Shown here one piece after another: positions 50,188 to 53,142 of a DNA stretch of 64,000 nucleotides. Source of the DNA: Planctomycetota bacterium (GTDB taxonomy: Bacteria; Planctomycetota; Planctomycetia; Planctomycetales; Planctomycetaceae). How positions within the stretch are numbered: the stretch's first letter is position 1; each line of letters starts with the position of its first letter. The position numbers were made by a program, and so were the translations under genes. The notes below the pieces were generated by a model. That model saw nothing but the letters and a program-made list of their open reading frames with translations. It was not told the origin of the DNA and did no database searches. Location of the stretch: assembly GCA_022600195.1 (NCBI GenBank), contig JAHZKX010000051.1:310001-374000 (forward strand). Direction: 5' to 3'.

Positions 50188-51540
50188 TCAGGAAAATGAC
50201 TGCTCACAAACCCGCAAAATATTCCCGCCAATAATTTTTTGAATGTCGGAATCAGAGTATCCACGTTGAACCAGACCGACGGTAAATAAAGGCCAATTTG
50301 TCCAGGAAACACTGATCCGCATATTTGGTGTTTCGACGAACGGATCAGCGGGCCACAAGCTGCGCCAGGCTGTTCGAGAGCGCGGAGCGCGGGGGACTTT
50401 CTTGCGTTCCAATGCGCCATTCCGTGATGAATAAGCCACATCGGTGCCGATGGCAATATGGTCAATGCCAAATTTTTTCACGACATAATCGACGTGGTCT
50501 AAGAGCGCGCTGATATCGCCCTTACCTCCCAGATATCGGGGAATACAGCAGATGCCGATCAGGCCTCCGGTATCGGCGATGGCTTTAATGACGTTATCCG
50601 GTTTGCTGCGAATATGGTGATGCAGACTGGCGCACGTGGTATGACTGGCGACAACGGGACGATCTGAAACTTGCGCGGTTTCCAGACTGGTCTGCCATCC
50701 GGAATGTGCCACATCCGGGATGATTCCCAGCCGATTCATTTCTGCGACCACGGTCCTGCCAAAGTCACTTAAGCCCGCGTTAGCCGGTTCGGCACAGCCA
50801 TCGCCGAGCATATTGCGTCGATTGTAAGTCATATGCATCATGCGAATGCCCAGTTGGTAAAAAATCTGCATGTATTTCATTTCGTCGGTCGTGGTGACCC
50901 ACTGTTGAGTCAGAGGAACGCCATTTCCTGTGAGATACAAACAGTGGCGACCTTCTTTTTTGGCCTGTTGAATGTCAGCGGGAGTCACTGCCTTTGATAC
51001 AAAGTCGGCGAGCATGTCTGTTGTATAAGTGAAACGTGCCAGTCGCTTGACCAGTGTTAGAGGGTCCTGCCCTTCTTCGCCGGCGTTTTGAAAGATACAA
51101 GTGACGCCGGCAGCATCGAAGGCTTCCTTGAATTCGCGTTGCTCTGCCGGGTCGGTAACACAGCGTGTCATTGACATGTCTTCTCGCATGTCCTTGAGCT
51201 CCGCTGGTGAAGCATTTTCTTTGATGGCCGCAGCCAGCCGGTCCCCGTCAACGGCGGCCCGCGGTGCAAAGCCATAAGAGTCAAACACCAGTGAATCTGC
51301 ATGCAGCTGGAGTCCATGCTCCAGTTGTTTTGGCGTAGGCTTTAAAATATCAAGTGCCACTTTTCTCGCATGTAAGATCGTATCATTCTGAATAGGCTTT
51401 TGTTTTTTTGGTGTGGCAGACGCATGTTGTTTGTCTTCAGCGGCTGTCAATTCTGATGCCGCCGCTGCTCCTAATCCGGTGGTAGCTGCTGCACCCAGTG
51501 AGGTACTCAGAAATGAACGCCGGTTGATTGAATTGCTCAT
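50188..51540 (-). CDS. Tat-exported membrane dipeptidase-like M19 peptidase
   Basis: 450 residues. The N-terminus is a twin-arginine leader (NRRSFLSTSLGAAATTG). The peptidase M19 (renal dipeptidase) metal residues appear in GIIPDVAHSGW, PVVASHTTCASLHHHIRSKPD and IAIGTDVAYSSRNG, with LVFDSYGF at the N-side. It probably hydrolyses dipeptides or D-amino acid-containing peptides outside the membrane. ATG 51540 leads straight into the leader. It lies between the Rieske-PSP1 gene and the epimerase. Confidence 0.83.
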   Translation of the reverse strand: MSNSINRRSFLSTSLGAAATTGLGAAAASELTAAEDKQHASATPKKQKPIQNDTILHARKVALDILKPTPKQLEHGLQLHADSLVFDSYGFAPRAAVDGDRLAAAIKENASPAELKDMREDMSMTRCVTDPAEQREFKEAFDAAGVTCIFQNAGEEGQDPLTLVKRLARFTYTTDMLADFVSKAVTPADIQQAKKEGRHCLYLTGNGVPLTQQWVTTTDEMKYMQIFYQLGIRMMHMTYNRRNMLGDGCAEPANAGLSDFGRTVVAEMNRLGIIPDVAHSGWQTSLETAQVSDRPVVASHTTCASLHHHIRSKPDNVIKAIADTGGLIGICCIPRYLGGKGDISALLDHVDYVVKKFGIDHIAIGTDVAYSSRNGALERKKVPRAPRSRTAWRSLWPADPFVETPNMRISVSWTNWPLFTVGLVQRGYSDSDIQKIIGGNILRVCEQSFS

Positions 51541-51643
51541 GATGAATTCCATTGGTCGGGGAAGTTAATGTTGTTGTGGCAAGTCTCTCGCTCCTGCTTT
51601 GCATCGTTGTAGCAGGGATACATTCAGGAACGTCATTTCATTT

Positions 51644-52504
51644 TTAACCGCAGCCACATCCGCCACTGGAACAACCTGACGCAGCGGGTGTTTCATCGAC
51701 GGGGTGAAATATAATTCGCCAGGGATAATTGGCGTTGAGCTCCTGAGCGAGAATTTCCAAAGCGGGCATCCGGCTGCCCAGATAATACAGAACAACCGTT
51801 TGTTGATCAAACAATTGCTCACAGTCAATGATTTCAGAAGGCATCCCCCGTTCCTGAATGAGTTTCTGGCAATCCTGGAAGACGGGGGCGGTCACATCTT
51901 CCTGACGGGAGAGTGTCTGTTGGTCTGTTGGAGTGAATTCTCGCAGGATTGTGCCTGCTGAGGGAACAGGATTTTCCTGCATACTGACTGAGGAAAGAAT
52001 TTCTCCGACCTCTTCTCCGCGACTGGTTTTTAAGATCACTCGTTCGCGGTGTGCATAAACGGCGTTCTCTTCTGCTGAGAATTGATCGACCCACCCCATG
52101 GAGCCATAGCGAACCAGAAAAGGATTTTGAGGGATGTCTGGCTCCTCAATCGTGGACGCGTCCAACAGTAACACGCCGGATTCTACTTTGAGTTCATAGC
52201 GAGTCAGAGGAAATTCGGGAAAGTCAAAGCATTCCCCCGTAGCTACATCAAAACTCCAGTCATGCAATGGGCAGCTGACTTCGGTGCCAGATCCCTCCCC
52301 TGCGATCAGTGAGGCGCCCTGATGCGGACAAGAATCATCGACAGCATAAAATTTTCCGAGCTGAAGATCGTCAACGACATGGAACACCGCAATCTCGGTG
52401 CCCTTGATCGAATATGATTTACGATCACCGGGAGAAATTTCTGAAGCCTCTCCCAGTTCTATCCAGTTTGTCATTTGCGTTGTTCCATAGTCAAAATCAG
52501 ACAT
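51644..52504 (-). CDS. Rieske [2Fe-2S] domain fused to a PSP1/RicT-like domain with a Cys-rich tail
   Basis: About 286 residues. In numbering from the first in-frame GTG (52510), residues 15-120 form a Rieske ferredoxin domain with the iron ligands C61-P-H63 and C80-P-L-H83. Residues 135-270 resemble the PSP1 C-terminal domain (RicT/YaaT): RVILKTSRGEEVGEIL, FQDCQKLIQERGMPSEIIDCEQLFDQQTVVLYYLG, and the AQELNANYPWRIIFHPVD ending. The tail is GCSSGGCGCG. Bacillus RicT works with RicA/RicF, which carry Fe-S clusters. So a redox-linked regulator of RNA processing is conceivable, but it is an inference. No signal peptide. Starts at 52510 (GTG), 52504 (ATG) and 52474 (ATG) are all possible. Confidence 0.75.
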   Translation of the reverse strand: MSDFDYGTTQMTNWIELGEASEISPGDRKSYSIKGTEIAVFHVVDDLQLGKFYAVDDSCPHQGASLIAGEGSGTEVSCPLHDWSFDVATGECFDFPEFPLTRYELKVESGVLLLDASTIEEPDIPQNPFLVRYGSMGWVDQFSAEENAVYAHRERVILKTSRGEEVGEILSSVSMQENPVPSAGTILREFTPTDQQTLSRQEDVTAPVFQDCQKLIQERGMPSEIIDCEQLFDQQTVVLYYLGSRMPALEILAQELNANYPWRIIFHPVDETPAASGCSSGGCGCG

Positions 52505-52599
52505 CGCCACTCTGGCTGTTGATTCAATTTTATTATATGCTCAATAGGTAATCATACCGTTATATCATCAAAGTATCTTCCTGCAGAGAAAAAACCTTT

Positions 52600-53142
52600 A
52601 TGGCTGTGCGACATATATTACTGGACATGGATGGCGTGATCTCTGATTTTATGGGATCGATCCTGGAGTTGCATGGTCAGGGGCATTTGGCCGAGAACTG
52701 GCCTGAGGGAGAGGCAGATTACGCGGGTGTGACGGGCATGACGAAAGACGAATTCTGGAAACCCGTTGACGCTTTGGGAGGCCGGTTCTGGAAAGAGTTT
52801 CCCCCTTATCCGTGGTTGAATGAGCTACTCGTACTGCTGAAACAGACGGCTCCCTTTACGATTAGCACTTCTCCCAGCCGCAGTGCTGCCTGTGCCTCGG
52901 CCAAAGTGGAATGGCTGCGACAGCATTTTCAAGAACCACATTTCATGGACTTCATGATCGGCACTCAAAAGTATCTATTGGCAAAACCGGATGTGGTGTT
53001 GATTGACGATCAGCATAAGAATGTAGATTTGTTTCGGGAACATGGGGGGCAGGCGATTCTGTTTCCCCAGCCCTGGAATACAAATTTTGCCATCAGTGAC
53101 AAAATCGGATATGTCAGATCCGAGCTGGAAAAGATGCAATAA
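52600..53142 (+). CDS. HAD-type 5'(3')-deoxyribonucleotidase-like phosphatase
   Basis: 180 residues. The HAD nucleophile is in LLDMDGVISDFMGS (first D) and the second motif is FTISTSPSRSAA. A LIDDQHKNVDLFREHGGQAILF segment gives the acidic motif IV. The length and the cap-like WPEGEADYAGVTGM segment fit 5'-nucleotidase C (NT5C) type proteins. It should dephosphorylate nucleotides. It is divergent from the Rieske-PSP1 gene. Confidence 0.85.
   Translation: MAVRHILLDMDGVISDFMGSILELHGQGHLAENWPEGEADYAGVTGMTKDEFWKPVDALGGRFWKEFPPYPWLNELLVLLKQTAPFTISTSPSRSAACASAKVEWLRQHFQEPHFMDFMIGTQKYLLAKPDVVLIDDQHKNVDLFREHGGQAILFPQPWNTNFAISDKIGYVRSELEKMQ

Follow-up and report, generated by a model that had tools for sequence, protein, structure and literature searches.

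RicT (YaaT) is a PSP1-family protein (NF041131/PF04468) that binds RNase Y stably in Bacillus subtilis, and its iron-sulfur clusters are needed for this binding (PMC10470536). Six cysteines of the B. subtilis protein (C161, C166, C167, C198, C203 and C204) serve as ligands for cluster 1 and also contribute to cluster 2 (PMC6751060). Oxygen sensitivity has been described for the Ric clusters, whose role is not settled; the Ric authors name redox sensing, and also the assembly or repair of clusters, as possible roles to consider (PMC6751060). The window, a 64,000-nucleotide stretch of a Planctomycetota contig (JAHZKX010000051.1, positions 310,001 to 374,000), encodes a protein in which a Rieske [2Fe-2S] ferredoxin domain is joined to a RicT-type PSP1 module. 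No description of a Rieske fusion with PSP1 or YaaT was found in the open-access literature searched, and domain-database entries may exist. Each domain is known by itself; what appears to be new is that they are combined, and repeatedly so.

The fusion gene occupies 51644..52504 on the minus strand, with an ATG at 52504, a stop codon at 51644-51646 and 286 encoded residues. A GTG at 52510 lies in frame two codons upstream, and the residue numbers of an earlier, sequence-only reading of this DNA count from it. A second ATG at 52474 encodes the methionine of an MTNW motif (residue 11 in ATG numbering). The same protein is carried by MAGs named Gimesia (95% identity for L104), so the genus of the window is almost certainly Gimesia. 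In many Gimesia orthologues the MTNW methionine is the first residue, and the true start may therefore be 52474. The gene is flanked downstream on the same strand by a Tat-signal membrane dipeptidase gene (M19, 50188-51552) and on the other side by a divergent NT5C-type nucleotidase gene (52600-53142), both kept as neighbors within the genus only.

The Rieske domain (residues 13-98; 52211..52468, minus strand) matches PF00355 with E = 9.3e-19 and 67.6 bits against a cutoff of 20.3, which bears out the Rieske assignment of the sequence-only reading. In ATG numbering the ligands are C59 and H61 in the first pair (C-P-H, 52322..52330, minus strand) and C78 and H81 in the second (C-P-L-H, 52262..52273, minus strand), and the C-x-H...C-x2-H pattern is intact in 42/42 distinct fusion proteins read. 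The nearest proteins in both sequence and fold are dioxygenase ferredoxins. Foldseek matched the Rieske half to the 3-nitrotoluene dioxygenase ferredoxin 5bok with a TM score of 0.89 over the target, an rmsd of 1.7 Å and E = 4e-9, and the two share 35% identity. The Rieske ligands and fold are common to the window protein, the ferredoxins of aromatic dioxygenases (5bok, 2qpz) and NirD. The window protein differs from these in being fused to PSP1 and in having no adjoining oxygenase, reductase or nirB gene. Identity as NirD (TIGR02378) was rejected because the score of 57.5 bits falls under the curated cutoff of 74.65.

The PSP1/RicT-like region spans residues about 127-271 (51692..52126, minus strand). 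Within it, residues 185-266 (51707-51952, minus strand) match PF04468 with E = 3.9e-10 and 40.4 bits against a cutoff of 27, so the PSP1 domain proposed from the sequence is present. Each half also matches its own Pfam family when searched alone, the search that the sequence-only reading had suggested. The NF041131 RicT model aligns with residues 155-276 at 39.0 bits in the whole protein and 41.4 bits in the isolated half, below its cutoff of 70. The window protein and RicT have in common the PSP1 fold, the T-x-RG-x-E-x-G-x-(V/I)L and D-x-E-x-L motifs, a helix cysteine and an association with Fe-S chemistry. Cys212 (51869..51871, minus strand; alignment column C88) is the PSP1-family cysteine, conserved in at least 90% of 74 aligned sequences, RicT among them. 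Unlike RicT, the window protein has neither the six cluster cysteines (C-x4-CC...C-x4-CC) nor the RicT C-terminal region, and it carries a Rieske domain at its N terminus and a Cys tail of its own. True RicT identity was rejected on the subthreshold NF041131 score and the missing cluster cysteines. A separate canonical RicT is encoded elsewhere in the same genome, and this second PSP1 protein has all six cluster cysteines. On these results the PSP1 half of the window protein is a paralogue of RicT and not RicT itself. Read by eye from the translations, the locus L049:6244-10895 apparently has the canonical RicT gene after lipB, lipA, a small gene resembling lipoyl carriers and holB, with a small conserved gene following it, in a lipB-lipA-holB-ricT-like cluster.

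The sequence-only reading had also noted a Cys-rich tail, and GCSSGGCGCG (51647..51676, minus strand) indeed closes the protein with Cys 278, 283 and 285. The tail is predicted to be disordered, with pLDDT <50 for residues 273-286. At least three cysteines are found in the last 30 residues of 35/37 forward (Rieske-PSP1) fusions. The tail is not essential to every fusion, since the G452 fusion does not have one. Structure modeling, which the sequence-only reading had suggested for the contact between domains, gave two well-modeled domains (pLDDT 83 for the whole fusion, with the N terminus and tail disordered), but their relative orientation is not fixed by the model (pTM 0.60). The PSP1 region modeled by itself reached a pLDDT of 88 and a pTM of 0.79. 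A sequence search found no solved PSP1 or RicT structure. Comparison of the modeled PSP1 core with KH-II RNA-binding folds gave Z = 8.8 for RbfA (84 residues, 3.7 Å) and Z = 8.0 for NusA2, values near the Z of 8 that the tool's own note calls borderline, and the Foldseek E-values against KH-like folds were no better than 0.08.

The two modules are also found joined in the opposite order. In f78, a distant planctomycete family, 5/5 genomes from five genera encode proteins in which the Rieske domain comes C-terminally after a full-length RicT; like the window protein they hold both modules in one chain with intact Rieske ligands, and unlike it they keep all six C-x4-CC...C-x4-CC cysteines (5/5). 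In a search of 392 genomes from the phylum, the Rieske part was covered, at the threshold applied, by these five f78 proteins and no others. The PSP1 tree places the RicT-Rieske proteins within the RicT clade and the window PSP1 outside it. The two architectures are independent, and the modules were joined at least twice; the grounds for this are the order of the domains, the PSP1 tree and the retained RicT cysteines. A third event is likely but not proven: the PSP1 half of the G430 fusion groups with the clade of short, bioB-linked PSP1 proteins described below (support 97/78), and the Rieske-half tree (94 columns, mostly without resolved branches) is too short to confirm it. The RicT-Rieske gene (L048, L010, L175, L176, L177), unlike the window gene, sits directly after ispG (5/5) and usually before nuoB (4/5), both of which are iron-sulfur protein genes. 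The sequence-only reading had conjectured that the fusion couples redox state to the RicT complex. That a second, independent fusion involves RicT itself strengthens a redox link to the RicT family, although the window half is a paralogue. That proteins of the RicT family have been joined more than once to a one-electron carrier suggests that electrons are exchanged, and the fusions are natural single-chain constructs for the measurement of such exchange.

RNase Y is encoded in the window genome (PF12072, E = 1.7e-36). No RicA/RicF-type Com_YlbF protein (PF06133) was matched in this genome at E ≤0.1 in a search that was positive for the B. subtilis control. The Bacillus complex as such is therefore not in the genome. 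A count over 199 genomes from the class gave 167 with both PSP1 and RNase Y, 4 with PSP1 only, 8 with RNase Y only and 20 with neither, unlisted rows of the table having been filled by subtraction. The association (Fisher P = 2e-17) ignores shared ancestry, and the absences are spread over many genera. The co-occurrence is evidence that RicT and RNase Y are linked beyond Firmicutes as well. For the fused paralogue it has little weight, because it is carried by canonical RicT, and the tie of the paralogue to RNase Y is one that we infer.

We propose, with a probability of roughly 0.4, that the Rieske-PSP1 protein is a soluble two-domain redox adaptor with RNase Y as its most probable partner. 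The N-terminal Rieske ferredoxin domain would hold a [2Fe-2S] cluster and take up or give one electron, and the C-terminal RicT-type PSP1 module would dock on the partner through the PSP1 fold. Beside this module, the short Cys tail may bind a cluster, a thiol partner or, presumably, metal. The redox state of the Rieske domain would gate the PSP1 module, either in its docking or in the condition of its thiol/metal site, and putative electron flow between the halves would allow electron supply to be read out as adaptor activity. The partner would be the partner of RicT, in a genome where RicT and RNase Y are present and RicA/RicF were not detected. RNase Y is the first choice because RicT binds it with a requirement for its clusters, because PSP1 tracks RNase Y across genomes, and because of the likeness, at a borderline Z, of the PSP1 core to KH-II RNA-binding folds. 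Against an RNase Y adaptor stand the lack of any neighbor that recurs beside the fusion across genera, the borderline Z, the domain orientation that the model does not fix, the tailless G452 fusion, the absent cluster cysteines and the bioB linkage of the nearest unfused relatives.

These relatives are short PSP1 proteins without a Rieske domain. They share with the window protein a short PSP1 module without the RicT cysteines and a Cys-rich C terminus, and differ from it in their tail of about eight cysteines (GCGPGCGTEEA..GGC..C..CAVA.AC) and in their genomic setting. On the genome contigs, the short PSP1 genes divergently adjoin bioB in 34/39 loci; bioB lies on the opposite strand within the flank, with <350 bp between the ORFs in most of the 34. 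Three of the five loci without a bioB neighbor are on contigs of <6 kb. The neighbor is a Radical_SAM plus BATS protein by Pfam and bioB by NCBIfam. An independent coordinate check of class-wide searches placed the pair in 25 genomes of six families. The gene for the short tailed PSP1 may serve biotin synthase as an accessory or be co-regulated with it, and the linkage raises a second idea, that PSP1 proteins help iron-sulfur enzymes. Pairs of this kind occur across Pirellulales and relatives (L103-L145), including Blastopirellula marina (L107), Botrimarina hoheduenensis (L118) and Adhaeretor mobilis (L129). Of 29 intergenic regions that separate bioB from the short PSP1 gene, 14 contain the heptamer CTTGGCA (or its complement), perhaps a shared promoter or operator element; in shuffled sequence no 7-mer occurred in more than 8. 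One contig (G406, C1:6571376-6573224) has a PSP1 gene that scores like canonical RicT about 0.7 kb downstream of bioB.

Nearly as likely as the RNase Y adaptor is a role in iron-sulfur maturation or electron supply, a possibility that we hold tentatively. PSP1 and the Cys tail would carry sulfur, iron or a cluster to enzymes, BioB above all, and the Rieske domain would supply the electron for cluster assembly or enzyme reduction. BioB spends its own auxiliary [2Fe-2S] cluster. Besides both sets of bioB pairs, the placement of the G430 fusion in the bioB-linked clade and the ispG and nuoB neighbors of the RicT-Rieske genes argue for this role, as does the cluster assembly or repair function to be considered for Ric proteins (PMC6751060). 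However, the Rieske-PSP1 fusions of the window's family are not themselves beside bioB, which is on another contig in the window genome. The bioB gene occurs in genomes that have no PSP1 gene at all, two PSP1 genes occur in several genomes in which bioB gave no hit, and the divergent pair may reflect shared regulation only. The short relatives are linked to bioB and not to RNA-processing genes, so that the RNA-related role raised by the sequence-only reading stays conjectural and faces a serious rival.

An ordinary Rieske ferredoxin serving an unlinked reductase or oxygenase, with PSP1 as a docking or stabilizing module only, is improbable. In its favor are the closeness of the Rieske half to dioxygenase ferredoxins in sequence and fold and its subthreshold resemblance to NirD. 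Dioxygenase-type Rieske ferredoxins usually share an operon with their own reductase or oxygenase; no such gene lies beside the window gene or recurs beside the other fusions. This explanation also leaves unaccounted for the repeated joining of the Rieske domain to the same rare partner in both orders. The redox adaptor with RNase Y as partner is retained as the first choice. More broadly, and speculatively, the PSP1/RicT proteins of Planctomycetota may be a family of redox-wired adaptors through which electron or Fe-S status is connected either to RNA processing by RNase Y or to the upkeep of BioB-type enzymes. In such a family the Rieske domain would act as the dedicated electron port, acquired at least twice and in opposite orders, and Bacillus RicT would use its clusters for this same redox function.

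The distribution of the forward fusion bears on whether the architecture is real. Counted from query ranges, hits spanning both halves were found in 40/170 genomes of the family, representing 12 genera. The same architecture, at 70-95% identity, is present in 16/17 genomes of the window's genus; in the 17th, a 76%-complete assembly, the hit covers the PSP1 half only. The fusion is in the same frame in closed single-contig genomes and in many independent assemblies. Within the genus, dN/dS is 0.04-0.21 in the Rieske half and the PSP1 half, and purifying selection acts on both. An artefact of assembly or sequencing, or a chance fusion in decay, has nothing in its favor beyond the rarity of the architecture and is refuted by this conservation and selection. 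Both outcomes that the sequence-only reading had set out against itself, a second half without a PSP1 match and two genes joined by a sequencing error, are excluded.

Synteny around the fusion is conserved within the genus, and no convincing recurring neighbor was found across genera. CTP synthase genes in the flanks of three genera and a DUF7133/cytochrome c protein in those of two were each read as probable coincidence. A scan of the collection gave matches only in Planctomycetota, a weak limit because one short pattern was used. One more Rieske-PSP1 fusion was found outside the family in the same class (G452). At this locus (L075:7103-9000) the tailless fusion comes just after another PSP1 gene, on its downstream side, whose product has the long Cys tail; an unassigned 145-residue ORF separates the two, and the parts are thus split over two genes.
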